Source: Schistocephalus solidus (taxonomy: Eukaryota; Platyhelminthes; Cestoda; Diphyllobothriidea; Diphyllobothriidae). Taken from it: 64,000 nt of DNA. The translations under genes and the position numbers were made by a program. The stretch lies in contig WEDG01000461.1 of assembly GCA_017591395.1 (NCBI GenBank), forward strand, positions 134,501 to 198,500, in the 5' to 3' direction. Each line of letters begins with the position of its first letter. The first letter of the stretch is position 1. The notes beneath the pieces were generated by a model. That model worked only from the letters and a program-made list of their open reading frames with translations. It ran no database searches and was not told the origin of the DNA. Shown here piece after piece: positions 4,955-62,275 of the stretch.

Positions 4955-5114
4955 AACAAGCCCATGGCTCAAAGGATAGGGCATTGGTTTCCTAACCAAC
5001 AGGTCGTGGCTTTGATCCTCGGTCGGTGCACCACCTGGAGTTGGGTATGGTTGGCTGGTAATGGCTAATGAGCCAGAAATGGCCATTCTGGTCACCCTTG
5101 TCTTTGTTGGTTCC
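4955..5114 (+). repeat. tRNA-derived SINE, copy 1
   Basis: The head is tRNA-like: an A-box-like TGGCTCAAAGGATAGGGC, an anticodon arm TTGG..CCAA around TTTCCTAA, and a B-box-like GCTTTGATCCT. The body has landmarks TGGGTATGGTTGGCTGGTAA, GAAATGGCCATTCT and CCTTGTCTTTGTTGG. Minus-strand relatives lie at 19724-19891, 20031-20198, 14473-14580 and, as a fragment, 58074-58110. The polymerase III boxes suggest a SINE mobilised in trans. A retroelement end follows directly at 5150. Confidence 0.75.
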
Positions 5115-5149: not shown

Positions 5150-5353
5150 GCCTGCCCAACAAGAAGAGGCCGCGAATTCCTGGAGGCAATGCACTCAGAC
5201 GAGGCATGCATTAACAGGCATATCGATTTAGATGCCAATTACAAAATTTCTCAAGGTCAAGTGGAGGCGAAAACAGCCACTATCGATCAGATAACTTCAA
5301 ACTCCGGATGTCTATTGGCTCAAACTTTAGCCAACCATAGAATCTTGTGCTAG
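5150..5353 (+). pseudogene. GIY-YIG end of a Penelope-like retroelement
   Basis: An open frame without its own start runs 67 codons to TAG at 5351. Early in it are GREFLEAMHSDEACINRHIDL, which resembles the C-terminal part of GIY-YIG endonuclease domains of Penelope-like elements (usual pattern RE..EAWHS...SINRHIDLP..Y). The Trp of EAWH is Met here. Only the 3' end of the element is present, as expected for 5'-truncated retroelement copies. It directly follows SINE copy 1. The assignment rests on remembered family pattern and was not searched. Confidence 0.5.
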
Positions 5354-5505
5354 GCATTATTTAAGGTTAACTGTTTTCTGTACATCTCCCATTTGTCTGA
5401 CGACGAACTGGGGCACCAGATTCGAAAATTTACACAATAAAGTTATTTTGTTCCCAAAGAACTCAACTTTATTTAATTAAATTTCTTGGGATGCCGATAT
5501 TTCAG
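5354..5505. other. unassigned spacer before the array
   Basis: Short AT-rich spacer between the retroelement relic and the TA microsatellite; no feature seen. Confidence 0.4.
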
Positions 5506-5526
5506 TACATATATATATATATATAT
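5506..5526. repeat. (TA)n microsatellite
   Basis: About ten AT dinucleotides directly abut the first unit of the 354-bp array. Confidence 0.9.
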
Positions 5527-5564
5527 GACAAAGACGTTATACCGTACTTCCGACATAGATACTA

Positions 5565-5653
5565 GCTAAAAGCCCAGACACGTGTTTCGCCGATGTTTCT
5601 GCTGCTGTGTGACACAGCAACGAGGGGTTCGGCTCCTCAGTGGGTCCCCCAGC
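5565..5653 (-). ncRNA. hammerhead ribozyme, array unit 1
   Basis: On the minus strand: stem I strand GCU..ACCCA, core CUGAGGA (5634-5640), stem II GCCGA (5629-5633) with UCGGC (5589-5593), core GAAA (5585-5588), stem III CAC/GUG (5579-5584), UC, then UGGG..AGC closing stem I. The predicted cut lies between 5577 and 5576. Stem II continues into an inner hairpin UGCUGUG-UCA-CACAGCA. Every invariant core base is present (N7 is G). The minimal three-pair palindromic stem III is the type I form known from schistosomes and Penelope-like elements, thought to work as a dimer. Confidence 0.8.
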
Positions 5654-5918
5654 GTTCTCTATGCGGTTTCTGGTATATGGACTCCAGAGAATAATCGGGT
5701 AAATAATTTCTGAAATTATTAAGTGCAGGACATGGAGTCAGGTGATTCGGACATGACTTTTTAAGGTCAGACCCGAAATTTAAATGAACATTTGGGTCGA
5801 AGACAATCAACCACTGTGGAATAACCACGTAATGCCCATTCTACAAACAAGTAGTACTACAAGTAGTATGAATCTTATATGACAAAGACGTTATACCGTA
5901 CTTCCGACATAGATACTA

Positions 5919-6008
5919 GCTAAAAGCCCAGACACGTGTTTCGCCGATGTTTTCTGCTGCTGTGTGACACAGCAACGAGGGGTTCGGCTCCTCAGTGGGT
6001 CCCCCAGC
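5919..6008 (-). ncRNA. hammerhead ribozyme, array unit 2
   Basis: Core, stems and cleavage site as in unit 1, with one extra U in the stem II loop. The predicted cut at 5931/5930 is 354 nt from the cut in unit 1. Confidence 0.78.
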
Positions 6009-6272
6009 GTTCTCTATGCGGTTTCTGGTATATGGACTCCAGAGAATAATCGGGTAAATAATTTCTGAAATTATTAAGTGCAGGACATGGAGTCAGGTGA
6101 TTCGGACATGACTTTTAAGGTCAGACCCGAAATTTCAATGAACATTTGGGTCGAAGACAATCAACCACTGTGGAATAACCACGTAATGCCCATTCTACAA
6201 ACAAGTAGTACTACAAGTAGTATGAATCTTATATGACAAAGACGTTATACCGTACTTCCGACATAGATACTA

Positions 6273-6360
6273 GCTAAAAGCCCAGACACGTGTTTCGCCG
6301 ATGTTTCTGCTGCTGTGTGACACAGCAACGAGGGGTTCGGCTCCTCAGTGGGTCCCCAGC
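6273..6360 (-). ncRNA. hammerhead ribozyme, array unit 3
   Basis: Intact core. One G fewer in the G-run of stem I, a place without pairing constraint. Predicted cut at 6285/6284. Confidence 0.78.
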
Positions 6361-6626
6361 GTTCTCTATGCGGTTTCTGGTATATGGACTCCAGAGAATA
6401 ATCGGGTAAATAATTTCTGAAATTATTAAGTGCAGGACATGGAGTCAGGTGATTCGGACATGACTTTTTAAGGTCACACCCGAAATTTCAAATGAACATT
6501 TGGGTCGAAGACAATCAACCACTGTGGAATAACCACGTAATGCCCATTCTACAAACAAGTAGTACTACAAGTAGTATGAATCTTATATGACAAAGACGTT
6601 ATACCGTACTTCCGACATAGATACTA

Positions 6627-6716
6627 TCTAAAAAGCCCAGACACGTGTTTCGCCGATGTTTCTGCTGCTGTGTGACACAGCAACGAGGGGTTCGGCTCCT
6701 CAGTGGGTCCCCCAGC
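6627..6716 (-). ncRNA. hammerhead ribozyme, array unit 4
   Basis: Intact core. The outer part of stem I reads AGAU instead of AGCU, which weakens the outer three-pair helix. Predicted cut at 6640/6639. Confidence 0.75.
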
Positions 6717-6981
6717 GTTCTCTATGCGGTTTCTGGTATATGGACTCCAGAGAATAATCGGGTAAATAATTTCTGAAATTATTAAGTGCAGGACATGGAG
6801 TCAGGTGATTCCGACATGACTTTTTAAGGTCAGACCCGAAATTTCAATGAACATTTGGGTCGAAGACAATCAACCACTGTGGAATAACCACGTAATGCCC
6901 ATTCTACAAACAAGTAGTACTACAAGTAGTATGAATCTTATATGACAAAGACGTTATACCGTACTTCCGACATAGATACTA

Positions 6982-7070
6982 GCTAAAAGCCCAGACACGT
7001 GTTTCGCCGATGTTTCTGCTGCTGTGTGACACAGCAACGAGGGGTTCGGCTCCTCAGTGGGTCCCCCAGC
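6982..7070 (-). ncRNA. hammerhead ribozyme, array unit 5
   Basis: Intact core and stems as in unit 1. Predicted cut at 6994/6993. Confidence 0.78.
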
Positions 7071-7337
7071 GTTCTCTATGCGGTTTCTGGTATATGGACT
7101 CCAGAGAATAATCGGGTAAATAATTTCTGAAATTTATTAAGTGCAGGACATGGAGTCAGGTGATTCGGACATGACTTTTTTAGGGTCAGACCCGAAATTT
7201 CAATGAACATTTGGGTCGAAGACAATCAACCACTGTGGAATAACCACGTAATGCCCATTCTACAAACAAGTAGTACTACAAGTAGTATGAATCTTATATG
7301 ACAAAGACGTTATACCGTACTTCCGACATAGATACTA

Positions 7338-7425
7338 GCTAAAAGCCCAGACACGTGTTTCGCCGATGTTTCTGCTGCTGTGTGACACAGCAACGAGGGG
7401 TTCGGCTCCTCAGTGGGTCCCCAGC
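7338..7425 (-). ncRNA. hammerhead ribozyme, array unit 6
   Basis: Intact core, with one G fewer in the stem I G-run as in unit 3. Predicted cut at 7350/7349. Confidence 0.78.
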
Positions 7426-7690
7426 GTTCTCTATGCGGTTTCTGGTATATGGACTCCAGAGAATAATCGGGTAAATAATTTCTGAAATTATTAAGTGCAG
7501 GACATGGAGTCAGGTGATTCGGACATGACTTTTTAAGGTCAGACCCGAAATTTAAATGAACATTTGGGTCGAAGACAATCAACCACTGTGGAATAACCAC
7601 GTAATGCCCATTCTACAAACAAGTAGTACTACAAGTAGTATGAATCTTATATGACAAAGACGTTATACCGTACTTCCGACATAGATACTA

Positions 7691-7779
7691 GCTAAAAGCC
7701 CAGACACGTGTTTCGCCGATGTTTCTGCTGCTGTGTGACACAGCAACGAGGGGTTCGGCTCCTCAGTGGGTCCCCCAGC
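7691..7779 (-). ncRNA. hammerhead ribozyme, array unit 7
   Basis: Intact core and stems as in unit 1. Predicted cut at 7703/7702. This is the last complete ribozyme of the array. Confidence 0.78.
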
Positions 7780-8093
7780 GTTCTCTATGCGGTTTCTGGT
7801 ATATGGACTCCAGAGAATAATCGGATAAATAATTTCTGAAATTATTAAGTGCAGGACATGGAGTCAGGTGATTCGGACATGACTTTTTAAGGTCAGACCC
7901 GAAATTTCAATGAACATTTGGGTCGAAGACAATCAACCACTGTGGAATAACCACGTAATGCCCATTCTACAAACAAGTAGTACTACAAGTAGTATGAATC
8001 TTATATGACAAAGACGTTATACCGTACTTCCGACAAGTAGTACTACAAGTAGTATGAATCTTATATGACAAAGACGTTATACCGTACTTCCGA

Positions 8094-8644
8094 CATGGCA
8101 GTTCGACCGTCGATTTCGACGAGGTCCACCGTATGCTCCACACCAGGTGGTGCAGGGACGGTGACTTGCGCGTGAATTAGTTTTAAGTGATAGTAGCCTT
8201 GCGCTGCAGCTACTGCATTCTCTCCTCCTCCCCACCTGAGTCCGGTGTCAAGACAGAGTCAAGAAGACCGGAGATGGGAGAGGGCGCAGGTGGCTGGCGC
8301 GGCCTAAGCCGCCCCTGGGCGTGCCACCACACCTGGCTCGGATCCCACGGAGTGGGAGTGCCATAAAGGCCACATTAAGAAGGAGCCATTGCAACCTGAC
8401 TCTCAGTCCGCCAGTCAGCCACTCCACACAAAACACACATTGGGCTGACCACGCGGTCCGAGTTATCCCGTCAGTTGGCAACCTTCCAAGCCACGGCTTT
8501 TAGCGCACCGTGATAGTTTCAAGCGCGTCAGATTGTTTATAGTGAGGAAAATACGCTGAGCTCTCGACCTCACTCTCTCCCACACCCCCACAATCAGACC
8601 ACTGTCCGAGCCAGTCAGTTGCCTGATGTGGGAAGTCAGTTGCC
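8094..8644. repeat. GC-rich dispersed repeat R1, fullest copy
   Basis: The sequence is clearly more GC-rich than its surroundings. Parts recur at 20475-20640 (shared ACCTG, GGTTTTAAGA/GGTGTCAAGA, TAGGCGTGCCAC), 22345-22540 (shared TTTCAACGAGGTCC, GGCAGGGACGGTGACTTGC), 61840-62275 (shared GGACAGAGTCAAGAAGACC, AAGGAGCCATTGCA) and 62330-62455. Short frames on both strands are broken and differ between copies. It begins exactly where the ribozyme array breaks off and ends where a partial ribozyme unit resumes. The class of element is not known to me. Confidence 0.7.
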
Positions 8645-8741
8645 TGCTGTGTGACGCAGCAACGAGGGGTTCGGCTCCTCAGTGGGTCCCCCAGCGTTCT
8701 CTATGCGGTTTCTGGTATATGGACTCCAGAGAATAATCGGG
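8645..8741 (-). ncRNA. truncated hammerhead ribozyme unit
   Basis: This matches array-unit sequence from the inner stem II hairpin through CUGAGGA, stem I and on to the ATAATCGGG end. It lacks the part holding GAAA, stem III and the cleavage site. It therefore cannot cut itself. It is the far side of the array after the R1 segment. Confidence 0.75.
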
Positions 8742-9052
8742 ATCATAATCATTGCCTCGAATCGGAATGCGTCAGTGCTTCATCTTTTAGTATTCGACGC
8801 CACCTCCATATGTTAAGAGGATTTATTAGTTATTTTGACTGTAGCAATTACGGCAGGACATGGAAAGAGGCACTGCCCGTACTACAGGGAAATAAGGGTA
8901 TGAAGTCCGCAATTGTGATATAGTAGGCTAACTGCCCAAGCAGGATTTCCTAACCAATAAATCTAGAATCCACCAGAGAGCTACCAGGATTACATACCTT
9001 GAAAGGTGGGCGGGTAACTTTAGCCAAATGTATTAAATGCATGGATCCCGGT
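8742..9052. other. unassigned sequence
   Basis: A 90-codon plus-strand frame (8651-8923) starts inside the truncated ribozyme unit and shows no motif; no gene is supported. Confidence 0.4.
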
Positions 9053-9139
9053 GGGGCCTAATAGCTCAGGTGGCTAGAGCATTAGCTGTGCTTATGCTTT
9101 CCCATTGATAGAGTGGATTCCAATCCCACCGAGGCCACC
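9053..9139 (+). tRNA. tRNA-like sequence, likely pseudogene or SINE head
   Basis: Acceptor strands GGGGCCT (9053-9059) and AGGCCAC (9132-9138) pair with one mismatch. The A box is TAGCTCAGGTGGCTAGAGCA with a good D arm. The B box GATTCCAATCC sits in a T arm TGG..CCA. The anticodon region does not form a clean five-pair stem and the stretch before the T arm is long. No unambiguous anticodon can be read. It is probably a tRNA-derived relic, not a working gene. Confidence 0.45.
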
Positions 9140-14472: not shown

Positions 14473-14580
14473 TGCCAACAAAGACAAAGGAAACTCTAAT
14501 GACCATTTCTGGCTCATAAGCCATCGTCGGTCATTCATACCCGCTCTAACTTACTGTGCCACGGGCTCGTTGTCTGCTGG
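14473..14580 (-). repeat. tRNA-derived SINE, copy 4 (decayed)
   Basis: Reverse complement of the SINE body: CCTTTGTCTTTG, GAAATGGTCATT, and the head end ACGAGCCCGTGGCACAG. The anticodon and B-box part is deleted, so the copy is old. Confidence 0.6.
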
Positions 14581-15754: not shown

Positions 15755-15975
15755 TATCCTCAGAAATTAATCGCTAACTTGGAGTAAATCAGTCTATTTG
15801 ACTGAAAGTTGATATGAATATAAGGGTCAAATTCTTTCAGTCACAGTGACATCCCTGCGTAATATTCATTTAACTGCACACAGGCAGCCGGTAGTATAAT
15901 AAGGGGTTACAGGCGGAACCAAAGCCATAGATAGATTGATTTACTCCAAGGTAGCGATTAATTTCGGAGGAAATT
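15755..15975. mobile_element. small inverted-repeat element (MITE-like)
   Basis: About 40 bp at each end are inverted repeats. The left end (15755-15795) includes AAATTAATCGCTAACTTGGA; the right end (15933-15974) is its reverse complement with about four changes. The 220-bp body has no reading frame. This is the layout of a non-autonomous DNA transposon. Parts of the body (CTGAAA, CACAGTG..AT.CC..CGTAATATTCA) recur at about 18940-19080. I could not define target-site duplications with certainty. Confidence 0.6.
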
Positions 15976-16030
15976 AAAAAAATAGCAATTTGTAAACTGG
16001 CGTATCTACAGGAAAGCGGTCAGGGGTAAT

Positions 16031-16108
16031 GCTGGGGGACCCACTGATGAACCGGACCCCCTATTGCTGTGTTAAGCAGCGGCAAAATACCGGTGAACCA
16101 CTAGGCTT
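16031..16108 (+). ncRNA. decayed hammerhead ribozyme copy (16.05 kb)
   Basis: It has the canonical CTGATGA core at 16044-16050 preceded by GGGGGACCCA (stem I). Stem II is ACCGG at 16051-16055 with CCGGT at 16090-16094, and an inner hairpin around TTGCTGTGTTAAGCAGC. The second core is GAAC instead of GAAA, and stem III and the cleavage site are changed to CACTAGG. The loss of GAAA and of the UC site makes cleavage unlikely. Of the dispersed copies it keeps the best first half. Confidence 0.6.
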
Positions 16109-17353
16109 ATAAAGTTAAATATATTTTTTTAAATAGCAAACATGCACAAAATTATTCTTCCTTATCTTCATTTGGTTGCAAATAACCCCACGTAAATAAC
16201 CATTTTTACAGGGTATTACTTTTGCTTTTACCGAAAATAATCTAATTCAAAACTCGGGATCCTGACCGAAGGGAAATATCTTGGAATTTGTCTGCATGAA
16301 AATTAGTATTTAAACCCATCATAGGTACTTTTACTGAATCCTAAATACATTTCGGCATTTCAGTTAACATTTAATGATGTAGCTTGTCTATCATAGGCTT
16401 TAACGCCGCTTCTGCCTCGCCTTCCAGTTTGATCCTTCGTTCGATGACAGGCTAGGACTGTCAGGTGGTTCGAGGGACAGGAGGGAGAGAGTGCTTTCGA
16501 CTTCCGAGAATCCAATCTCATGTTACAACCCTCTGTGATGGCGCGCTTGGCTCTGTCGGGATGCGTTGAGTTGTGAATAGTAAGCCTGTTACCTGACGGG
16601 ATGAGTCGGACTTTTAAAGGACCAAGAGTATGGTGAAATAGCCCCTACTTACTCTAAACTTAAGGCTACTCGGAGATGAGCCACATCTTAAGTTGCCTAG
16701 CACATGGCAGTAAGGACCAGGTACTGCTGTTGAGTGATGGGCTTTTGAAATTAAGTCACCATTTTTCTGCTTTCCATTTGCATGTGAATCTTCTTATATG
16801 GACGTTGTTTGTCCTATTTCACCCATTGTATACTTAATTTAAACCCTCTTTGTTTATTTGAACTACAATAATGAGGTCATCAGTGCACGACGTTGGCATC
16901 GTTTTGAAGAAAGTCCACTTTGATGTACATTATGAGATACATTCAAGGACGATTCTTCATGATTTCTGTAGTTGCAGTATTCGGCAAATCGTTTGTGGTC
17001 TTCCGGTGTATTGGGGTTTTATGTTCCCAATCTTATTCAAGGTAAAATGGAGGACATTTTTTGCTGAAAGTTCTGGAATTTTACTGTCAAAATAAAGCGT
17101 TTCAGACGCACTCACGTCTGTAACCAGTGGTCTTGACATTGATTTGTCATCAGAGCAAGATGGTTGTAGGAGGAGAGATTGCTCTCTCTGCAGTCTAAAC
17201 ATCTTCATGCTAATGATAAAGCCCTTTCCACAATTGCTTACAGCGCCGATGAAGTAACCCATGTGCAGGAAAGAGTTTTTGACAAAATTCGAAAATTTGG
17301 GCATTAAAAACTGGAATATATAACCAAAAATGTGCGAAGTGAGCGCTACAGAG
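16109..17353. other. unassigned sequence upstream of a ribozyme relic
   Basis: A 115-codon minus-strand frame (16957-17304) and a 74-codon plus-strand frame (16871-17095) overlap here; neither shows a known motif. The position just before the 17.4-kb ribozyme relic suggests this may be the body of the same decayed element. Confidence 0.35.
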
Positions 17354-17434
17354 GAGATGAGTCAAAACCTTCGCAGCTGTGTCATGCAGCGGAATAAAGT
17401 CGAAGAAACACATATCTGGGCTTTTAGCTAGCAG
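17354..17434 (+). ncRNA. decayed hammerhead ribozyme copy (17.4 kb)
   Basis: GAGATGA (17354-17360) stands where CUGAUGA is expected. The inner hairpin region CAGCTGTGTCATGCAGC is kept. GAAA is followed by CAC, ATA instead of GUG, then TC and TGGGCTTTTAGCTAG, which is identical to the stem I strand of the array units. Core and stem III changes make it inactive. The downstream sequence resembles that after the 1.9-kb copy. Confidence 0.55.
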
Positions 17435-17840
17435 TCATTCTAACATAATGGTGGGCCAAGCAACATACTACTGATTATCTGTTGACAGTTTGTGAATATT
17501 ACGCGGCTATTCTGCAGTAGCTGATTAATTCCAGCTGATATACTCATACACTTTTAGCTCGAGCCTGAAGAAGTTTTTGCCGAAGAAGAATGTACCCGGT
17601 ATTCGCATATTACTTTCTGAGGAAATAAAAAACTTGACAAATGCACAGATGCTGGCGTTTCTATCCTGGTCGCGTTGGTTGACACACACACCCGTGTGCC
17701 ACGGATCAATATGTATAGATCTTAGACGATCCTCTGTCGTAGTGATCAGATGCAGCGGCAACAAAGTCTACACGGGGATCCAAGTAACCAATTGTGGTTG
17801 GCTTGCAACCGATACAGCGTCTGTATGCTTCAGTCCTCAG
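17435..17840. other. unassigned sequence after a ribozyme relic
   Basis: The first hundred bases resemble the arm at 1990-2120 (ends in AGCTCGAGCCTGAAGAAG against ATCTAGCCTGAAAA). Overlapping short frames at 17525-17935 show no domain. Confidence 0.4.
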
Positions 17841-19284: not shown

Positions 19285-19623
19285 TTAGATGCGGGCGGAT
19301 AAATTAGTGGCTTTCGGCCACGGTAATTGCGGTGCCTGTATAAAGTTCTTTTGAGCACACAGGACCGGTTTGCGTAGCCTGATAGCAGCTGCTTCTGCCG
19401 TAGCCAACAGATGCTGTCCAAGGAATTTTGAATATATTGAGGGGACCTTGTAAATTACCCGGAAGGCCTCTTTGGCATTTACATGATGGCCTGTGTCTAC
19501 CACATGCGCGAGGATAGACCTGTTTATGTTCTTATTTGATGAAAGCCACCAATTTAGCCGTGCGCATCTGTCCCTGCATTGTACAGTTCCAAGGGGTTTT
19601 ATGCATGGTAAGTAGGTGCTCAC
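19285..19623 (-). pseudogene. GIY-YIG end of a retroelement
   Basis: The open minus-strand frame of 112 codons has, from about residue 17, RDRCARLNWWL, ILAHVVDTGHHV, EAFRVIYKVPS, LLATAEAAAIRLRKPVLC and QKNFIQAPQLPWP. This order resembles the end of retroelement polyproteins with a GIY-YIG nuclease: TGH, then AEA.AI....P.LC.QK.FV...LPW. The N-terminal 15 residues are encoded by repeat R2 and are not part of the domain. The GIY-YIG motifs themselves are not visible, so the copy is 5'-truncated. Family assignment is from memory of the pattern. Confidence 0.5.
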
Positions 19624-19723
19624 CGATCAGTTACAGGACTCACTCGTCCCGTTGTGCCGTGTGGCTCCCGTTCAAATACCGCCAGCAGCCGCAGGGTGGC
19701 AAATTATATAAGCAGAATTACAT

Positions 19724-19891
19724 GACCGACAAAGACAAGGGAGACTTTTATGGCGATTTCTAGTTTATTAGCCATCATCAGCCAGCCATACCCAAACCCA
19801 GGCGCTGCGGCGCACGAGGCTCGAACTCGCGACTTGTTGGGCACAAGTCTAACGCTCTACCCACTGCGCCACGAGCTCGTTGTCTTGCCGG
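19724..19891 (-). repeat. tRNA-derived SINE, copy 2
   Basis: On the minus strand the head reads GAGCTCGTGGCGCAGTGGGT with A box TGGCGCAGTGGGTAGAGCG and B box GAGTTCGAGCC. The body is GGGTATGGCTGGCTGATGAT and CCTTGTCTTTGTCGGTC. This is one of the two best preserved heads in the window. Confidence 0.8.
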
Positions 19892-20030
19892 TTTGATCGG
19901 GAATATTACCTATGGTAAGTAGGCGCTCATCGATCAGTTACAGGACTCACTCGTCCCGTTGTGCCTTGGGGATAACTCTCAAGCCCCGCCAGCAGCCGTA
20001 AGACAGCTTAGGATATAGGCAGAATAACAT

Positions 20031-20198
20031 GACCGACGAAGACAAGGGAGACTAGAATGGCCATTTCTGGCTTATTAGCCGTCATCAGCCAGCCATACCC
20101 AACCCAAGGCGCTGCGGCACCCGAGGCTCGAACCCACGACCTGTCGGTTAAAAGTCAAACGCTCTACGCACAACGCCACGAGCTCGTTGTCTTGCCGG
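20031..20198 (-). repeat. tRNA-derived SINE, copy 3
   Basis: Like copy 2, with A box GTGGCGTTGTGCGTAGAGCG, B box GGGTTCGAGCC and body GGGTATGGCTGGCTGATGAC, GAAATGGCCATTCTAG. It is the second SINE of the tandem block. Confidence 0.8.
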
Positions 20199-20474
20199 TT
20201 TTGATCGGGAATATTAACTATGTTAAGTAGTCGCTCACCGATCGGTGGCGGGATTCACTCGTCCCATTTTATTACCAAGAAAGTTTGATAAATGCCATTC
20301 CTGACTTAGGACAAGGCGCATAGGTTCTCTTCAGGAAGTTTCAAAGGCAAGCGAAAGTATTACATTGCTCGTTTGAAGGTGATGACGATCAATGCACGGA
20401 TTCTCTTTGGTCTAAGTGAGTGGACTCAGCTAGAAATATTTACGTTTTTTTGGTATTAAGCCTGCTAAATTTTG

Positions 20475-21531: not shown

Positions 21532-21745
21532 GGGATATAACGTTTATTGGCCTGATGATTCTGATTCCCTCTGATTCTAATTCTGATGATTCTGATTCCC
21601 TCTGATTCTGATTCTGATGATTCTGATTCTCTCTGATTCTGATTACCTATCGAACCTGGGATATAACGTTTATTGTTCTGATGATTCTGATTCTGATTCT
21701 GATGATTCTGATTCTGATTCTGATGATTCTGATTCTCTCTCAAAC
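21532..21745. repeat. GATTCT microsatellite with internal duplication
   Basis: Hexamer GATTCT with GATGATTCT and CTCTGATTCT variants. A GGGATATAACGTTTATTG stretch occurs at 21532 and again at 21658, so the block is two copies of a 126-bp unit. Translations give Asp-Ser (plus) or Asn-Gln/His (minus) runs, which are by-products of the repeat. Confidence 0.85.
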
Positions 21746-22344: not shown

Positions 22345-22540
22345 AAAAAATGATAGGCCATCCGTTGATTTCAACGAGGTCCCCGGTGTGCTCCAAAGCA
22401 GAGTGGCAGGGACGGTGACTTGCACATGCATTACTTTAGAGCGATAGTCGACATGCGTTGCTTCTACCGCACTCTTTTTATCCGCCAGGGCCCGTTGAGG
22501 AGAACGGGCACAGGATCCTGGCACGGCATGGAACCACGCT
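22345..22540. repeat. R1 fragment
   Basis: Matches the left part of R1 (8105-8230): TTTCAACGAGGTCCCCGGTG, GTGGCAGGGACGGTGACTTGC, GATAGTCGAC..TGC.TCTACCGCA. Confidence 0.65.
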
Positions 22541-47700: not shown

Positions 47701-50700
47701 TGTGTCCTTTTCCTGGCGGGTGTTAGCGATAATTGTTTTGTTAATGGTATACATTTACGACGTGGTCGGCGGCTGGGAGTTCAAAGCGACGTTTAATCGT
47801 TTGCAAATATTGTGGTCTGTTCAGTCCTGTAAATGACATTGATTTGATGACACAATAGTTTGAGCAATCCTGCGACAAAAAAACAGGTAAAAGTACCCGC
47901 TAGTTATTACCATGCCCAGTAGATACCTCAATTAGACCATATTTTGAACTTTCGATGTGACTTGCGATAAGTACCACAGTTATCGGAGCGTGAGGTATAA
48001 GTGAAAAATTCTACCTTGCTTTTTGCAGAGTGAATAAGAATCATGACACGGAGATCCACAGCAGAGGGATATTCACCGAAACAAGAAGGTTTGTGCAAAG
48101 AATGAAGTAAAATAATAACCCTATTGTGCCTAGCCATTATGAAACTGTCAAATACTAAAACTGAAAGCGATGTAATAAGCAATGATACAGATAAATTTGC
48201 AGAGACTTCCTTGTTCCTTCAGTATGCGCTAGCAGAACAAATAGCAATAATAAATTTTGAGGCCACGATAAAACGACCGAAGAAAAGCGGGGTGTTTTGT
48301 CTGCAGATGTTTAATCGCGAATCCTCCCTTCGAGCTTAGACCTACCAACAACAATAATTCAATGCCTGAACTTACCTAAACCCGTCGCTATAGGGGAGTT
48401 TAATTTGTATTTCTTATTCATTTGTGGAGAGTAGCGCCTCTTACCCTGAAATTAGAGCAACATACTATGTTCTCAGACTTTATCATCCTTACTCAAGGAC
48501 TATGTACATTAAATATGCCATCTCAATAAATGTTTAAAACTTCGATTCAAAGAGCTTGCCTAAGTAGTCTTGTTATATTAAAAATATCATTCAGCATAAT
48601 CCTAGGGTTGTTCAATCGCTGTAAAAAATTAAAATGACTAAATACATACGTAAGCTTCTTCAAGACCGTTATAAATTAAAATACATTTAATAAAAACAAT
48701 GAACAAATATATTGCTTCTTTTAATCATTTGATAGAAATTCACTTAATCTTTAACTATAATTGAAGAAAGTGTTCCTCTAACTTTTAAATTTTTATGCCC
48801 GAATAATCCTCAAATTAAGTACAAATACAGGTTCTTGCGTTCAAAATATTTGGAATTTAGGGATTTTAAGTTTTCCACTGAGATTTAGGAATGTATCATT
48901 TAAGTCGAACGCTTTTTTTCATTTCTATGTTTTCCTGGAAATAAGAGGGCTTGCGGTTGCAATACCTTTGCGATTCGCATAAGTAAGCCTCTATTACTCC
49001 AAAATTCATGATTTATTTTTCTTAATTTTTAAAGCAAGACAATGTTTAACAATTTTGGTGTAAAATTTGTTTTTGCAAAGAATCAGATTTCAGATTCTTC
49101 AAGTGACCTGAAAATGTGCAAGTTTTTTAACACAATGAAACATTCTGAAATGGGTTTTTACAGACAATTCATCAAAATAAGTCTACATAAATTCTGCTTT
49201 TTCCAAGAATTCTGCATAAATGAGTTTCTGAAATAAACACAATAGCATAGTCATTTTGCTAAAAGTGCATTTTTTACTAAAATGTAACTTATAAAGTAAA
49301 TATTTGTCTGTACGAAACTAAAACATACTTTTTCGATTGCACAATAAATTTAAGAAAATATGAAAACATTCCATCTGTGAGATAAAGTGTCACTGATTGA
49401 TTTGAAGCTGAAGATTTCGAGCTAAATGCGTGGAACTATAGGCTTCGAGGATGAAAGTTTTTGAAGAATAAAACACGTGCCTTATGAGTTAACCCTAGTC
49501 GGTTGTGACATCAACTAGTCAGTATCCAGTATAATCACTGCTTAACCGATGGAAGCTTAAACGTATACATTTAGAACATGCTGTCCGTTGGAGAGTTACA
49601 TCACAGGTAATTAAAATGTTGGTATTGCAAAATCTATACTCTTAGAAGCATTTGTTCAAAACTCACCAAGGCAGCCAATTTATTAAAACATAAGTCAAGA
49701 AAACTATTGAAATCCATCAACGTGCCTATGCACATTATTTTCTCCGGTTAGATTAATGATACTATTCAGAGGCTAAAGCATTAGGTGAGGCTAATACTAA
49801 GATAAACAGGTTCAAATTGACCGACAAGGATTAAAAATATATAACTAAATTACGATGACTTCGATATAGTAGTTCATTTATGAAAAAAACTTGTAGCCTA
49901 TTGAACGCCATCAATGAAGAATATACGAAATTTTCCCAGAAAGTGCATCCACTGCAGGGAAGCAAATTAAACGGTATCTTCAAAAAGAGCAGCTCAAAAT
50001 GAATATTCACAATTTTTAAATTTCTTCGTAAACCAAAAATCGCTTAGCAGAGGATGATGACTGATAAAATAAATACCGTAATGCGGTACTCAAACTATTA
50101 GTTAATTGTGGTAGGTCCACATTTCCTACTAGTCTACTTAGTAATTTATTTTCCCTTATAATATTAAACATTTCATTTCATCATTTTGCCAAATTGTATG
50201 TACGCTTAGGTTAATTAGCATTTCATCCTAACTGACTGAGTACAAAGAAGACGAATTAGTTGCCACACATTTTTTTCTCTGCAACATAATGTGGGAATGG
50301 AAAAGATTATGTGTACCTAATAATATGGCAAACATCGCTTTAATGCAAAGGAATATATCATCTTTTTAATCAACTCAGAAACGAATGCTCTTGCAGTTAG
50401 TTACTCATTTTATTATCAAACTTTATGAGTTCAATTCACCAGTTAAAATGATACCTGAGCTGAAATCCATCAGCTTTAATCAGGATAACCACGTAATCTG
50501 TGAAAAATGCTAAAATACCGAATCTGAAAAAAATTTACAACTAGAGTATACATAAGAAATTACAAGGAAAATGCAGGGAAACTCGCTGATGGGTCGAACC
50601 TACCGCGAAAGTGTCGTAAAGTGCAGAATATTTGAAAAACATTCATCTGAATTTTCAAATCGTACCTCATGTTTAGTGAGGATAACCATGCAGTGTATAT

Positions 50701-52463
50701 ATCTATATAAACGTACATCCGGGGCAAAAGTGTCATCATTTTGTATTTTTCTGCGTTTATATACTTTTAGTACGCAGGCTAAAATAGATAGTTTTCGTTT
50801 TATTCTTTAGGTAGAGCGTAAATTTCTTGCTGTCAAAATTTGGCCGTACCCTAATCCAGTGTGCGGAGGACACGTTCCTTGAGCCTGGGCGAAACGTATG
50901 AGCTGGGATTCACCTTCCATCGTCAAACAAAGATAACATGCGAAATTACACGCTAGTGAGATTCAGTAACCTAAGATCCTCGATACGGAATCCAACTATT
51001 TTGTTTTTAAAGACCTGCATTATTTGCCATTACCTGCGGTGGATACGCAGAACCCCTGATAATGGAATACGCTTCTGAAACCTTCGTATTAACAGCTTAA
51101 GTGCATTTTAAGAATGCCTAACTTTTTTTTTATGTAAATGAGGGAAATCTTTTTTGTTTTGATTTGTTTTAAACTTGATTAGAGTTCGGAAATGCGATTA
51201 TAGAATAATTTATCAGAAAGTCCTAATATAAGGTAGTCCGCAGGTTTCGATGGACAATTCTGTCCATATAAGGTAGTCATATAATGTAGTCAGCAGGTTT
51301 TGATGGAAAATTCTGTCTCTGTTCTGCTGCAATCGTCTTTTGAAAACGCTTTTCATTTTAAAGGTAAATTTGCGGTAGGTGGCCTTAAGCATGAAACATT
51401 ACTCACAATACATACATACATACAATTTATTTGATATTGTACGATTATTTATAATAAGGCGTGTGCTGAATATAATTTAGGCAGCTCACATTTCTGCTTA
51501 CTGGCGAAAAATTAAATTAAATAAACGAACCAAACTCTTATGTATGAATATTTGAAATTCTTCTTTGTTGCCTCAGTACATCGCTCAAACGAAATCACAG
51601 AAGACTGTCAATTCCTGAGAAAATTTTGTCAACAGCTGAAATTTCATGCTCTACAAATTCTACCCATTTGCACGTTAAAAAACGCCGTTCAGGCTATGCT
51701 ACGAAGGTAATGGTTGTGATACTAATTGAATCAAACATTAACAGCTTTATATGGACTCGTGATTATATGGATTTCCAAACCGACGGAGAAATATTTTTTA
51801 CGATGAAGCCTAAGAGAATACTTAATTTAAAAGGAAAGGAAAAAAAGAAGAAGTATTTCATTCTATGCGTTTTTGAAACATTTTAATTTCCACTGGGAGT
51901 CAAGTTTCAACGCAAATATCAATCCAATTTAAATATATATTTTATACGGATGAGACTTTTGCAAGTGACCCAAAAGACCTGCATTTAATAACCGATATCT
52001 TGCCATGTCTGAACTGTCTAAAGCTTATGCTCCACTATAATAAATCCTGCAACACAAAAAAGTAAGTCCGCTCTGCTCGAAATAGTTTTTCAGAAGTATT
52101 TTGCATGTTACACGCCTCCTATAGAACGAAACCTGATTTACCTTATTTTATTTCCCCAAACCTGTTACCTATAATTTAATGCATATTCTCAAACTGCGAC
52201 TTTATTGAATACTTTACTTGGCAAAAGCAATTTTTTCGGCTCCAAAAAGCATTAAAACATCAATAAAAAGTGTCAGTTCATCCACAGATTTTTAAATACC
52301 CAAATCAAATATTGTGTGAGCATTTACCGATTGCGAGGCCAATATTGTCACAAATGTGATAAGCAAACTTAAAATTATACAATCTTGTAGAGATTGATAA
52401 GAATTGGTTAGGTTTAAGCAGGTCTGTCATGCAGATAGATTCAGTGAAGCGTACAAAGCGTAC
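44707..52463 (-). other. HCN intron (7757 bp)
   Basis: Bounded by a GTACGC donor after the pore exon and a TTTTTTAG acceptor before the C-linker exon. The content is AT-rich with no recognised element; a short CATA microsatellite lies near 51411-51424. Frames such as plus 45887-46081 and plus 51626-51886 show no motif. Confidence 0.75.
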
Positions 52464-52682
52464 CTTTTCACGATACATCTTTTTGGAGCAGTCGAACGAT
52501 TGAATGAGAGCGGCAGCATGACCAACGAAGAGAGCATAACAAGTGGATCCAGTCATCATGCTGATGATAGTTATCCAGGCTTCGCTTGCACTGGTTGGTG
52601 GGAACCGACCATATCCTATTGAGAGCATGTGAGACATCGCCTTAAAGAGGGCCCATGTGTACTGCTCAAACCACCCGGCGTT
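52464..52682 (-). CDS. HCN: HCN channel, pore helix, selectivity filter and S6 exon
   Basis: This exon of 73 codons begins NAGWFEQYTWALFKAMSHML, continues with the filter SIGYGRFPP, and then S6 with MMTGSTCYALFVGHAAALIQS, ending CSKKMYREK. GYG is the potassium-type filter that in HCN channels also passes sodium and carries the Ih current. ALFKAMSHML and GHA.ALIQS are specific to HCN and separate it from EAG and CNG channels. The acceptor is TTTTTCTTACAG before AAC; the donor is AAAAG followed by GTACGC; both ends are phase 0. The length of 219 bp equals, as I recall, the matching vertebrate exon. Odd points: Ser replaces the Cys usually before IGYG, and the turret reads NAGW, so the N-x-S/T glycosylation site of vertebrate HCN is absent. 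Confidence 0.96.
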
Positions 52683-55600
52683 CTGTAAGAAAAACATGCA
52701 ATTTTTACAATCAAAATTTTGATGACCAGTTTCCAGACCACACAAACCACAAGGCACGAGATATGCATGACCCCATTAGTTTCCGATAAACAATAATATT
52801 TTACCCTTGACGTAAAAACAGTATGAACTCTAAAAGCAAAAATTTGTTTAAGCAAAGCAGCCTCTGCAGGAAAATGTAAATTTTTGCTAAGTAGTCTCGA
52901 GCTTAACCAAAAATATTTGGTCATTTTAATCTCGGATAAAGTTTTTGTGGTACCGTTTCTGCTAATGCGTATTTAGGCAGCTGATTAAACAAATTTACAA
53001 AATTTTAAGCAGTATTTTTAATATTTATTTTAGCTTTTCTTGTGTATGGTGAACATTTTGGTAATGCGTATTTAGGGAATCGAACGGATACATAATTAAC
53101 TTGCAGTGAAGAGTTCAATATTTGTGTAGCTATTGTTAGTGTTATCCTGTTATATAGCCTAAAATAAACCAACACAACGATCCTGGTTCATTTTATGAAC
53201 AAGAGGTAGTCGTTTTGTGCGCAAAAACATTTATAAATACTTTTCCGAGGAATAATCTACTTCCATTTTTCCACTACTGTATCTTGAAATTATAAACATG
53301 TGAATGATTGACAGTGAGCTACGCTGCAAAAACCTCTTAAAATAAAACTTATACGAGATTATTCTTCAGTATATGTTGATCCAATTCTTCAATGGCCTCC
53401 GTAGAACACCTACTGCTTCTTTGCCTTTAGGCGCCTTGTCTAGCATAAACCACCGTCCCTATCATAAAAACGCCTAGCCAATTTACAGTAGATTTCCTAA
53501 CTCATGAAAGTTTTAGGATCAAAATTCAAGGTGGTAGTATCGCACACACTTTATTGTGATCGTCGGAATGAATCGAGATGGAGAAATATGCTTACTAATA
53601 AGGACAAAGAGTTGCACCGAACAGGATGACGGAGTCCCCACTAAGCGAGCGCATATGGCCCTCTTTCGTTTGTTTATACTTGCAATAATATTGCCTACAC
53701 TTCCTGAACCAAATCATCGATTCAAACATAGTAGAAACAAGAAAAGTGCGTTTTTGCGGACATGTGGTGTTTGACAGTAGTGCATCTTCTGAGACTAGGA
53801 GGACGTCCATTGCGGAATGTCTATTGCAAGAGAAAAGTAAGCTTTGAGATTATTGTAGTGCACACAGAAGATTTCTGGTCGATGTATTCTTGTGGAACAG
53901 ATTCTTTTAATCTCTTGATTACGCGAAGCTGTTCACTTATGAGGGATTCGCTTCAGATCTGCATATAAAAGTGAAAAGTGGGCCCTAAAAGGGCACAATT
54001 CGTCCTTTCTTGCTATCCAAGAATTTTTCTATGCTACTGAAAACAACGGATCAAAACGTTGTATTATAAAAAAATATACGAACCGGAAAGAGTTTCAATA
54101 TATGCCTTCAGAGAACGGAAAATTTGGTTTTGCGTTCAAGAATATCAGGTATAGGCAAATATGGGAAATTGTATTGTTTCCAGGAAAAAAAAGACAGATG
54201 CAGTTTAAGAAATTAAGTTTTGGAAACTTGTGACAGCATGTACCAAAAAATGATAAATAAACTTTGTGAATGTATTTTTTTACCTCATCGATAATTAGGA
54301 CTTGAAACACGCATATATTTATGAAAAACAGCGATATGCGACCACTTTTCTGTGTCACGGCGCAGGTGAAAAGGGTACAAACAAGTTCTTACTATATTGA
54401 ATAATGAATGAATACGGAAACATGAAACGAATAGCGCAAAAGATGGAAATTTCTTCACAACATTTTAAGTATATATTCGGCCTTCGTTTATGCATTTGAA
54501 ATCGTAAATGCGGGCCTAAAAGTACGAAAATATAGCAAAAACGCACAATAGGCAAACATAGGTGAGATCTTTTATTTCAGCACATATTGAAGTTATTATT
54601 TTCCATGGAGTCGAGAAACAGGTCAAACGTCCCCCTTTTTCCTTGACTTCATGTTGGAAAAAGGTATAATAACACAGACGTTCGAAATATTAAATATAAG
54701 TGTTTGTGTAAAGAGGTAACTTATTAAAGGAGTTTTCCAAATGGATCTTAGGTAAACTTATTATCGACTTACGTTGTAGGCATTTATTCTTGCGGCAAAC
54801 AGTTTTCATGTTTGTGTTAGTCCACAACTATGACCCAAATGGTTATCTGCATTTGAGAGTGGCTCAAAACTCACACTTCCAGTAAAGGCCTTTAAGAAAT
54901 ATCTTATTTTGAAAGTTTTGAAAAGCACATAAAAAAGAATCTATATTTATGGGCAATGAACAGAAAACACAGGAAATCGTGAACATAACTGTTTTAAGGA
55001 TGAGCTGAAACTCATCGTTACCAAACACCTGAACTATTTATCAAGAAAATTCACAAAAGATTGACCTCTTAATATGCACAAAATAGCACGTTTCAGATTT
55101 CACCTGAAAATTCTATTTAAATTTATTAGTCACTGAAAAGCCTGTCACAATATTAGTTTTAAAATATTTTATTCCTGTGACGTTCCTGTCCACGCAATCA
55201 AGCAAAAGTCTCTTTGCCTTAGTCAAACACATATTAGAGAATACAGAAACGGAAAAGAAACGGCCGATTCTCGTGAAACCATGTTGGAATATTTGCTTGA
55301 AATGTAAGCTGTTTGGTAACGACCATCACATTCATTGCCATTTCATTGCTATTTCTTAACAACGTTTTAATAACTTTTAAACCACAATATACCTGCTTTT
55401 TAAGAACGTTTGCTTCTTTACTGCTGTAAAACTTTGCGGCACGACGTGTGGGCTGATGTCCAATAACGGGCCTTTTCTAATGAAATCCATACGATTTAAT
55501 GAGATTGGACAGGTACTGTATGTAAACGTAAAGAAATTCAGGAGCTCTGATTAAGAATGTTTTGATAAAAAAATCTGTGCAACGCTTTAGTTCCACATTC

Positions 55601-59045: not shown

Positions 59046-61839
59046 CCTTCACAAGAATGTAGGACAAGGAATACTTTAATACCTACATTGACAGAGACAG
59101 ACGCCATTTTGACGTTTGGCGCAATGCTAGAACTGAAAACGGGTATGTTTGAAGGTTCGGGAAGCCATTCGCACACCAAGGGAGTAAAGGAAACTAACCA
59201 TCTAGCAATCAATCCCATACAACCAATTTAATTATGTCTTCAGATTAGTGGAACCAGGAAACTCAGGTCAATTTGAACTATTGACAATAGCTTGAAGCGG
59301 AGATTCCGAAAATGGAAGCTCCATAACTTTAGAAAACCAATTTGTCTAAGTGAATCTTTGAGCAGGAATCACTTCCCTGAAACATTTGCACCTGCTCTTA
59401 AATGTTTTATGGAAATTAGGGTTTGGTTCAGGCGATATTAAATGACAATCGTAAGTTTTTTAAGGTTGACATGCGATCAGTTTGCGTGCTTGACAGTGCC
59501 AGAAGATCTGCTCTGTTAACCACCAAGTTGATCATTAAATATTCAAAAGACAGCTCTGAACGTGAGAGTGAGAGTTAATTTTTTAAAGAATGTGCATCTC
59601 CTTGCAACCATTAATATTTAAAACAGCTTTTTGGGAATTTTTATGTGCAACTGACGAAGGAGAGCACTAGATTTCCTAACTGCCTGTCTTTTGGAGACAC
59701 GTCTGGAAGTCAGTTTATTTATGCTGTAGCATCTAATCAAATTTCTCATGCTTGCTTATATTTAATTCCCAAAAACCACTGACAGTCTTCATATTTATGT
59801 TCATGGATGAAAACTATACGTAGTGATAATGTATTAAAATTTGGACGGTAAAACCTCTTCACGTAATGACCACAAAACAGTTTAATAGGGTTTTCTGGTA
59901 CAGAAAAAGAAAAAAGTATATTTATTAGTTTACTTTTTGATCGGAACTTTCGTATACATATGACAAACCTTATTCAGCACAAGAAAAACATTTAGTACAG
60001 CATAGTTGCTTGGAAACAAGAGTGGAATAAACGTGTCAATTAAGAATGCAGTCGCTGTTAGTGACGAGTAAACAACTTTCGGAGTAATTTCATGAAAACC
60101 CAAGATATAAAAATCAATAGGAAACTTAAAACGTAAACCCTAATATACAGCCTCAGGAAGTACAGCTGAAATTAAACAATCACATGGGATATGATCTAAC
60201 TCATGAAATTTCCTGATCAAACTATGAGTATTTATATCAACATACAGTTGCTCTTTAAATAAGTATTTCCTGAATAGCTTTGTGGCTCAGAATGTCTTCT
60301 AATAAAAGTCAGAGCACTTAAAATCTGTTTTATTGAAAATAAGCAGGCCAGATTTGGACGAAGTCAGACACTTTTGGACATGCAAGTGATTTGCCATACT
60401 ACTTAATATCAAATATCAACCTAAGTTTATTTTATCTGTTATGCTATAAATGGACATTAATCTGATCTTACGTCAAGGAATATCACGTGAGTGCAAGAAA
60501 AGAAAACCCGCCTCGGTTTCAGAAACGACTAGCGAATGCAGCTTTAAATTTATGCTATCAAATTTATGAGGCTTTGCCAAAAACCTCGGGCAATAAATTG
60601 TCTACTAACCACATCGAGAACGGTCAGTATAAAAAATATATCTTGAAAACACCTAATATTATGTCTCTTATATATGTCACGCCGTGCGATTGCAATGTTA
60701 ATTTACGCCTAAGAAATTGGTTCCAAAAAGCAGCCACGTGAGTCGTTAACTGATATTTGTAATATCAGAAATGCCACACTATTAAGAATTGTCAACAGTA
60801 AATCAGAACCTAGAATTAAGGAAGCTGGATTAAAAAGGTCCTCTAAGAAAACCGTATGACGATTTTATTCGTCGTAAACTTAACAAATACTATTTACTAG
60901 AACCTTAAGACTATTCACAGGGAACACTTGGGCAATGTTTTCTGTGCGCATAATTAGCAAAAGAATGAAGGAATTTGGCTTCCCTCAGCGAACCTATATG
61001 AAAACGCCTTTTGGAGGTAGGAAACGGATTAAAGAACTTTTTCTTGGTATAGGAGTATATTTTTAGGGAATTCCATTATTGTAAAAAGTTTACTTTTGTA
61101 ATTATGTTTTATTTGTGAATAAGCGTCCGGAATTTTTTACGCTGATCATAAATGGCAGATGCATCCTCCAGAAGACACTGTTTTGACAGCCATTTTCATT
61201 AACTGTCGACGCCCGATGGTGAGGACGGCCATCATAATAGGAGGGCGACCGATCTAGTCATATAAAACGTGCATAACATTATCGCAGGAAGGAAATATGA
61301 TCCCAATGTAGCTTACAGCTCTAATCTTATTGTTTAGAGCAAAGCCAGTGACTTTGCTTGCGGGTTGGGAATCATCATCATTCCTGCTAATAGCTAGAAA
61401 AGCTCTTCGCATTAATTACTGCTCAATGCTGGAGAAATGGGTTTTTATGCAAAACAATTCAAAAGATAAGTATATTATCAAAAATGTGACACTTTTTATT
61501 TTAACTTTAATCACAGGAGTTATTCACGCAAAAAGACAATCAAAAAGGGTTCCAGTAAGTTATTTTCTTAAATATTTTCATTATGTGCTCGTTATGTTAC
61601 AATTTGTTTGTCTGCTGTCAGTTATATTAAACCTAAATAATTGATCTGCAAAAATTAGTTTTTGTTTTATACGTTTTGATAAACGAAACCTGTTTATAGG
61701 GAACAACTCAAAATTTCCAACCAGATCTATTATTTATTTTTGAAGCCTACGGTGGGGTATAACATGGAGCAGGAACGTTTATTTGCCTTTTGGCTTATAG
61801 TGAGAGTATCCATGCACTGCATCCAACTCACTCTCTGTT
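59046..61839. other. unassigned AT-rich stretch
   Basis: Frames at plus 60487-60741 and plus 61330-61644 show no domain; the latter is hydrophobic at its end (VLVMLQFVCLLSVILNL) but has no supporting context. Confidence 0.35.
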
Positions 61840-62275
61840 TCACTCTTTTCACCTGCGCCTGATGTCAGGACAGAGTCAAGAAGACCAGAGATGGAAGAGG
61901 GCACAGGTCCAAGCCCTGCGTTTAAAAACAAACAGGAACACAACAACGAAGGGAGGGGCAGCTGGGATCCCAGCTGAGAGCAAGTTCAATAAAGGCCTCA
62001 CTTAGAAGGAGCCATTGCAGCCTGATTCTCAATCCGTCAGTCAGCCATTCCGAACAAACGCACACACAGGGCTGACCGCCCAGTCCCTGCTATCTCTTTA
62101 GATGTTAGCCTCCCAAGTTATGGCTTAAAACGCACCGTAAGTGCTTCAAGCATGTCAAATTGTTCGTAGAGAATGTGTGGTGAAACCGTTGACCTCACTA
62201 TCTCCCCCACTCCCAGCATCAGGGTACCGTCCGACGTAGTCAGTTGTCTGATATAAGAGTGGGCGGAGTGGTTGA
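61840..62275. repeat. R1, second long copy
   Basis: It shares with R1 at 8220-8640, in order: GGACAGAGTCAAGAAGACC, AGAGGGC.CAGGT, TTAGAAGGAGCCATTGCA, GTCAGTCAGCCA, GGGCTGACC, AACGCACCGT and ACCTCACT.TCTCCC. An insertion of about 60 bp of different sequence follows the CAGGT part. Confidence 0.7.

Follow-up and report, generated by a model that had tools for sequence, protein, structure and literature searches.

Tandem hammerhead units of a high-copy family, probably spread by reverse transcription at TA microsatellites

The window, by which we mean the whole 64-kb stretch of DNA whose first lines stand above, carries on its minus strand (5522–8096) a tandem array of seven full 354-bp units (5527–8006), followed by a unit with an internal deletion and by a remainder of 30 nt, and each full unit contains a complete type I hammerhead ribozyme motif in the RNA sense, i.e. 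the minus strand. We consider it probable that these units belong to a high-copy family that has spread by reverse transcription at TA microsatellites, probably with an enzyme of the Penelope-like type. By its anatomy, the element would likely be a metazoan retrozyme without long terminal repeats (non-LTR retrozyme), mobilised by one particular Penelope-type family of the same genome, here called family 2. The motif itself, paired changes in diverged copies and the copy number can be read directly from the DNA, as can the recurrence of 3′ ends at TA repeats, the head-to-head arrangement of pairs and the TA ends of a Penelope-type family. The genome searched, of which the window is a part, comprises 603.7 Mb in 8,019 contigs, and a protein match to Schistocephalus solidus, described below, points to a diphyllobothriid tapeworm as the likely host.

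An earlier note on this DNA had reported seven near-identical 354-bp units at 5527..8093, each with a minus-strand hammerhead, and had proposed the layout of a retrozyme. The limits found here agree with it to within five bases, and the proposed layout is now supported by the sequence, by the paired changes in diverged copies and by a genome-wide insertion footprint. Three findings go beyond that note: a stem III that is palindromic, insertion ends that are fixed and lie in TA repeats, and the tail of a Penelope-type element beside the array.

The array and its hammerhead

On the minus strand, the unit reads CCCA-CUGAGGA-GCCGA...UCGGC-GAAA-CACGUG-UC^UGGG, the caret marking the predicted cut. 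A strict scan (CUGANGA, GAAA and UH, with stems I and II of 4 bp or more each) gave seven minus-strand hits in the window, covering 7/7 full units, and none on the plus strand; a looser scan likewise gave seven minus-strand matches, one in each unit. As 0/20,000 dinucleotide-shuffled units passed the strict scan, a chance hammerhead is ruled out. Measured from the CCCA of stem I to UGGG, the seven cores lie on the minus strand at 5573–5644, 5927–5999, 6281–6352, 6636–6707, 6990–7061, 7346–7417 and 7699–7770, with predicted cuts after plus-strand positions 5576 (i.e. between 5576 and 5577), 5930, 6284, 6639, 6993, 7349 and 7702, respectively. The resulting spacing of 354, 354, 355, 354, 356 and 353 nt bears out the range of 353–356 nt given in the earlier note.

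The covariance-model scan proposed in that note had a divided outcome: Rfam Hammerhead_1 (RF00163) aligns with 7/7 minus-strand units, albeit at 22.7–22.8 bits and thus below the gathering cut-off of 34 (E ~0.04 in a 4.5-kb search). When the E-value was calculated for the full window, the model was found at 6/7 units with E 0.56–0.58. The alignment places 37 nt in stem II, as compared to 6 in the Hammerhead_1 model. Because the score stays below Rfam's own threshold, the array hammerhead is classed by its anatomy and by covariation.

The latter could be assessed thanks to diverged single copies of the hammerhead region elsewhere in the window. Three of these lie on the plus strand at 2451–2699, 1844–2057 and 17274–17524; a fourth, on the minus strand at 2165–2394, has stem III AUACGUAU in place of ACACGUGU, and a fifth, on the plus strand at 15951–16197, has stem II ACCGG/CCGGU in place of GCCGA/UCGGC. 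The covariation alignment comprised eight sequences, i.e. these five copies, two found beside other arrays and one array unit, with weaker relics (50529–50606 and 17610–17763 of the window, and those in loci L040 and L046) left out. Both sides were changed in 10/28 pairs, compared to 2–4 in controls in which the structure was slid along the alignment, and 14/500 shuffles reached 10. Paired cells amounted to 70.3%, a value that 34/500 shuffles reach (shuffled mean, 68.0%), and to 28–40% in the slid versions, over which the structure is favoured because it was taken from the array row of the alignment. With GCCGA/UCGGC, ACCGG/CCGGU and GCCGG/CCGGC as variants of stem II, and ACACGUGU and AUACGUAU as variants of stem III, the diverged copies keep their helices through paired changes, as judged from this alignment. 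Two further diverged hammerheads that look intact (G000:C21:40139-40200 and G000:C26:425647-425709), one with another inner hairpin and one with stem II GCCGG/CCGGC, represent further subfamilies.

Folding of the unit, either as a linear molecule or as a circle, recovers stem II, the hairpin within the stem II extension and the long stem I in the minimum-energy structures, and the centroid folds leave the hammerhead core open. As a circle, the unit folds with −95.5 kcal/mol and 60% of its bases paired (z −2.4; 3/200 shuffles as low). Stem III is palindromic and nearly loopless, such that a single molecule allows either 2 bp closed by an ACGU loop or 4 bp without a loop. With the 2-bp version forced, the energy is −18.7 kcal/mol, as compared to −19.5 kcal/mol when it is left out; the lowest-energy fold of a single molecule (−25.6 kcal/mol) is not a hammerhead. 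Two copies folded without constraint, on the other hand, form a double hammerhead that is joined by an 8-bp ACACGUGU duplex (−62.7 kcal/mol). Since stem III is palindromic and nearly loopless, the ribozyme may work as a dimer, and in this modelling it would do so via stem III.

As to the unit as a whole, Tandem Repeats Finder reports a period of 354 with 7.1 copies and 98% matches at 5522–8035, plus a period of 60 with two copies at the right end (7973–8095). Past the seven full units, the array continues with unit positions 1–29, followed by 321–354 and 1–30, reaching 8096. The segment 7973–8095 is an exact 60-bp duplication, and a short ACA common to the join (identified by eye) would fit a deletion or template jump within the unit. 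The GC content of the interval 6001–8000 is 0.429, under the 50% limit of retrozymes, whose units span ~150–450 bp in many places of a genome, a range that includes the 354 bp of the array unit. Stop-to-stop frames of at least 110 aa, the minimum length searched, do not overlap the array, in keeping with the earlier statement that the unit encodes no conserved protein. At this cut-off, there is thus also no open reading frame (ORF) for a reverse transcriptase (RT) and GIY-YIG endonuclease in the array, such ORFs being located in separate elements.

Insertion ends and TA repeats across the genome

A genome-wide count, which the earlier note had also proposed, returned 4,455 matches to the hammerhead pattern (2,256 and 2,199 on the two strands) as opposed to 0 for the reversed control; viral contigs, searched with one hammerhead pattern, gave 0 matches. 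A search with the unit gave 1,313 candidates, of which the best 40 yielded 163 matches, and 20 further array stretches were taken from contigs among the unit matches listed, which together with the window make up 21 loci. For these, ends were counted by unit phase, which starts at 0 with the base that follows the predicted cut. Ends at most 30 nt from the end of a contig or stretch, as in L011 and L018, were omitted, as were three short old relics in L014 and L026.

The array of the window terminates at its RNA-sense 3′ end, at phase 54, in a TA repeat (5510–5525) that we take to be both the target and the site of cDNA start. The same behaviour recurs elsewhere: among 19 RNA-sense 3′ ends in the 21 loci, nine fall at phase 54, five at phase 235 and one at phase 234, with at least four TA/AT repeats within the next 20 nt at 15/19 ends and not a single end (0/19) at the predicted cut. 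The 21 countable 5′ ends, by contrast, are spread over 17 phases (phase 20 three times, phases 74 and 250 twice each, four ends within 249–251). Genome-wide, exact junctions of the type TTTGYCA(TA)n number 872 (465 and 407 on the two strands) versus 7 for the reversed pattern, and those of the type TTATTTACCCGAT(AT)n number 376 (183 and 193) versus 0.

Arrays also occur as inverted pairs with their 3′ ends pointing outward, a configuration found in 6/21 loci (L010, L019, L021, L022, L024 and L025). Similarly, among 148 junctions listed, neighbours within 5 kb of each other are oriented outward in 16 cases, inward in two and in the same direction in four. Together, the recurrent starts, the scattered 5′ ends and the extension from both sides of a TA target point to a footprint of target-primed reverse transcription, and satellite expansion alone does not explain the insertion footprint seen in these sequences.

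Mechanism, template and enzyme

Cleavage, dimers, circles, the enzyme and the form of the template are what we infer from these patterns, and events might unfold as follows. RNA would be read from the minus strand across the units, at some loci starting in an upstream leader. According to the folding model, two-copy hammerheads would then pair via the palindromic stem III ACACGUGU and cut the transcript into 354-nt monomers, which a host ligase may close into circles, as has been shown for other animal retrozymes. A Penelope-type RT with a GIY-YIG endonuclease would open a TA repeat, whose TA-ended DNA would prime cDNA synthesis at an internal site of the RNA, at unit phase 54 or 235. Copying would cross several units and cut sites before halting at varying 5′ positions, and often both DNA ends would be extended, with the two cDNAs joining head to head. 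In its full form, with a Penelope-like element that opens TA microsatellites, two fixed cDNA starts, extension of both ends and a ribozyme whose cutting form is a double hammerhead made by adjacent units, this is a scheme towards which we lean only slightly.

The form of the template is where another reading comes closest. It retains the element and its TA-primed insertion but takes the template to be a linear, uncut multi-unit RNA, with circles, if any, as a side product, and we regard it as a serious contender just short of probable. At its RNA-sense 5′ end (phase 20), the array of the window is joined to a leader of 537 nt (8097–8633, minus strand), and copies of this leader stand at the same junction in L015 (99%) and L028 (96%), with an identical outer limit. 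The 3′ sites differ, being phase 54 in the window and phase 235 in L028 (that of L015 is lost at the contig end). A leader that is joined at one phase and combined with differing 3′ sites fits a linear transcript of leader and units and would not fit a circle, which is why the sequences of the three leader loci suggest a linear read-through RNA as their template. That arrays run through cut sites also favours a linear template, as does the report that RNA of the Anolis Penelope-like element PAc still inserts in vitro when its hammerhead is dead (PMC11167929; here and below, papers are cited for those portions of their text available to us). Set against this, the window, L015 and L028 are of common ancestry and count as one line of evidence, the leader was not found at the other 18/21 loci, and circles are the major form in other animal retrozymes (PMC7229834). 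At these other loci, a circle and a linear multimer are not distinguishable by sequence. The leader is itself related to repeats at 61799–62252 (69%) and 22362–22475 (78%) of the window and to repeats in L026 (81–85%), and a unit fragment on the minus strand (8644–8749; phases 222–327, 96%), which holds only half a hammerhead, lies upstream of it.

Regarding the enzyme, two Penelope-type families were found in this genome. Family 2, for which 150/150 scored candidates match among 10,560, has frames of up to 817 aa and forms tandem monomers of ~2.56 kb. In the copy L050, its ORF is split over three frames, the pieces of which match family 1 at 31–34% over RT and endonuclease. Remains of family 2 adjoin the array: a C-terminal relic of its ORF lies on the plus strand at 5171–5248 (REFLEAMHSDEACINRHIDLDANYKI; compare REFLEAMHSDESCINRHIELDATYRHL in L050), followed by its 3′ tail at 5373–5493 (plus strand; 77% to the tail in L022), which enters the TA repeat tail-to-tail with the array. 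Tail and array meet in this manner across one TA repeat in both the window and L022, and in L010 the tail has a separate TA repeat nearby. The pattern of a family-2 tail running into TA has 300 forward matches versus 9 reversed (967 versus 2 on the reverse strand, inflated by nested matches), and at C74, C93, C191 and C350 it was seen by eye 0.35–0.37 kb downstream of a family-2 endonuclease match. On these sequence grounds, family 2 is the best candidate for the mobilising enzyme. Family-2 tails (~5396–5440 of the window, L050, L022, L025 and L010) also share a conserved CUGANGA...GAAA-like motif ahead of an AAUAAA-like signal; this CUGACGA...GAAA motif may be a minimal hammerhead but plays no part in the argument here, because base pairing in its stem II looks poor by eye and Rfam reports no hammerhead there in L050.

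Mobilisation by family 1 or a long interspersed nuclear element (LINE) in place of family 2 strikes us as unlikely, although there are arguments for it. Family 1 is characterised by an endonuclease like that of Schistocephalus solidus: a relic on the minus strand (19285–19626 of the window) shares 69% identity across 80 residues with a GIY-YIG protein from that species, and the protein itself matches this genome at up to 94%. Family 1 is abundant, with 150/150 scored matches among 12,079 first-look candidates, and L049, a 5′-truncated copy with an inverted neighbour, holds RVT_1 (above the Pfam cut-off, E 7e-11) and the endonuclease in one frame. Among scored endonuclease matches with neighbours within 6 kb (150 per family), family 1 has eight head-to-head, no tail-to-tail and one same-direction pair, and family 2 four, none and nine, respectively. 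In addition, one array fragment, in L015, lies next to an RT sequence that looks LINE-like, judged only by eye. However, a TA run of at least 8 was found in 0/20 family-1 loci of about 3.3 kb each, and the 3′ ends of this family fall in other kinds of sequence, in contrast to the family-2 tails, which run into TA repeats as the array does.

We find it improbable that the 354-bp unit, instead of being an independent element, merely belongs to a Penelope-like element as its untranslated or pseudo-LTR portion. Such elements do carry tandem type I hammerheads (PMC7761336), and family-2 sequence does adjoin the array. Yet the hammerhead profile, run at E-values of up to 10, had no match in L049 or L050, which represent one copy per family, the former being 5′-truncated and the latter spanning a junction of tandem copies; nor, at E-values of up to 5, did Rfam report a hammerhead in L050 or, beyond its first look, in L049. 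Moreover, array and family-2 tail lie on opposite strands across the TA repeat.

Just as improbable, in our view, is an array of mere satellite DNA that has grown by unequal crossing-over or slippage and in which the hammerhead is a fossil without a present role. Tandem, near-identical units, stretches of 28 units at several loci, core bases that are not spared in inserted copies and, at the right end, a unit with an internal deletion would all fit such an origin. Recombination alone, though, does not produce 3′ ends that recur at particular phases, a preference for TA targets, 5′ ends that scatter and inverted pairs that face outward, and it would be expected to leave ends at arbitrary phases, whereas 15/19 3′ ends fall at 54 or 234/235. 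The recurrent ends rule out plain satellite expansion as the sole cause, and local expansion after insertion is possible.

Reverse transcription at TA repeats with a family-2 enzyme remains our preferred reading, against which several observations have to be weighed. Across 295 full units from the 21 loci, 12 core positions are changed in 36/3,540 cases, i.e. without sparing relative to random positions (P 0.52), and substitutions are more frequent in the hammerhead region than elsewhere in the unit (1.6% versus 0.9%), which is perhaps partly an effect of alignment. Such a lack of sparing in inserted copies is expected if these are dead transposon copies, with any selection acting on active masters. 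The Rfam score stays short of its threshold, and the minimum-energy folds of a single molecule also pair some bases of the hammerhead core. With respect to insertion, 4/19 RNA-sense 3′ ends fall at other phases (58, 154, 227 and 22), 4/19 lack a clear TA repeat (both L019 ends have TATA only, and those at phases 227 and 22 have none) and one inverted pair points inward (L044, a locus found by another route). The three loci with a common leader speak against a circular template there. Finally, the family-2 GIY-YIG domain in L050 scores 15.3 bits versus a Pfam cut-off of 22.6, the RT piece of L050 has no Pfam match, no recognition sequence was shown to be common to family 2 and the unit, and family 1 makes head-to-head pairs as well. 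Because the Pfam result is weak, our confidence in family 2 as the enzyme is slightly lower.

Neighbouring repeats, related elements and implications

Several other features of the window are worth recording. A second tandem family of ~307–308 bp is present at 19605–20265 (2.1 copies) and in L023 (5516–9999, 14.6 copies), where a retrozyme array with its TA repeat lies next to it; one of the L023 units has a sub-threshold tRNA match (24 bits versus 29). Likewise, a tRNA-like repeat at 9055–9137 matches the Rfam tRNA model below threshold (26.2 bits versus 29), and the stretch at ~4955–5111 recurs at 14475–14542, 19725–19881 and 20032–20150. Both resemble tRNA-derived short interspersed nuclear elements, a label given by eye. 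Two blocks of TGATTC-type tandem repeats with periods of 31 and 21 occupy 21552–21736. An exon-like frame on the minus strand (52305–52775) matches Pfam Ion_trans_2 (E 9e-05) and resembles an HCN-type channel. Across the whole window, no Rfam family reached its gathering score and ARAGORN detected no tRNA, and Pfam searches of the six read-through frames of 14.0–21.5 kb and of two of the six frames of 1–5.1 kb gave nothing meaningful.

Among known systems, the metazoan non-LTR retrozymes share most with the array: tandem type I hammerhead units of a few hundred bp with low GC content, no long ORF, very many copies and Penelope-like elements in the same genome (PMC7229834). Most invertebrate retrozymes, however, are reported to cut well as single motifs (PMC7229834), whereas stem III of the array is palindromic and nearly loopless; a stem II that is extended by an inner hairpin and recurrent TA-directed ends also set the array apart. 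Closer with regard to stem III are newt satellite 2 and the axolotl retrozymes with their 330–350-bp units and weak palindromic helix III, whose ribozymes work better as dimers (PMC7229834). The array differs from these in its invertebrate host and longer stem II, and the likeness is one of anatomy. The minimal hammerheads of Penelope-like elements and Terminons are similar to those of the array in their short stem III, their tandem arrangement and the dimeric cutting proposed for them, but the array has a short unit without a long ORF as well as long stems I and II (PMC7761336).

With PAc, the array has in common a hammerhead, a probable internal cDNA start and AT-rich targets, and in PAc both DNA strands are cut and extended, as would be the case in the insertion proposed here (PMC11167929). 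PAc encodes its own RT and endonuclease, whereas the array unit, which is without a long ORF, would need a helper (PMC11167929). The schistosome Sm-alpha and W elements are flatworm repeats with type I hammerheads as well, some of which were shown to be active; an insertion rule of the array type was not seen in the accessible parts of their description, by which, rather than by sequence, they are likened to the array (PMC8490949). Plant LTR retrozymes, too, are non-autonomous hammerhead units thought to move via RNA circles, but they carry type III hammerheads in LTRs, measure 600–1000 nt and use Gypsy-type machinery (PMC7229834).

Among the papers listed by our literature search, beyond whose reach lay supplements and most subscription papers, there was none on a tapeworm retrozyme. 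Retrozymes and cestodes appear together in one paper that, in the text available, deals with other elements (PMC10886601), and platyhelminths are named in general terms as hosts of such repeats (PMC7229834). Only these same two papers, PMC10886601 and PMC7229834, were returned for retrozymes in conjunction with target-primed, again within the limits of their accessible text.

As for the enzymes that spread animal retrozymes, Penelope-like elements have been named only as strong candidates, as far as the consulted portion of PMC7229834 goes. Here, one genome contains more than 1,000 insertion ends under one rule, i.e. two internal starts, TA repeats and often the extension of both target ends, and next to the array lies a Penelope-type family whose ends fall in such TA repeats too, which turns the question of the enzyme into one that can be concretely assayed. 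The array also adds a candidate dimeric hammerhead from an invertebrate, one whose stem II is extended, and its template seems to have been a linear RNA and not a circle. If our interpretation is true, a genomic footprint would name the machinery that mobilises an animal retrozyme.

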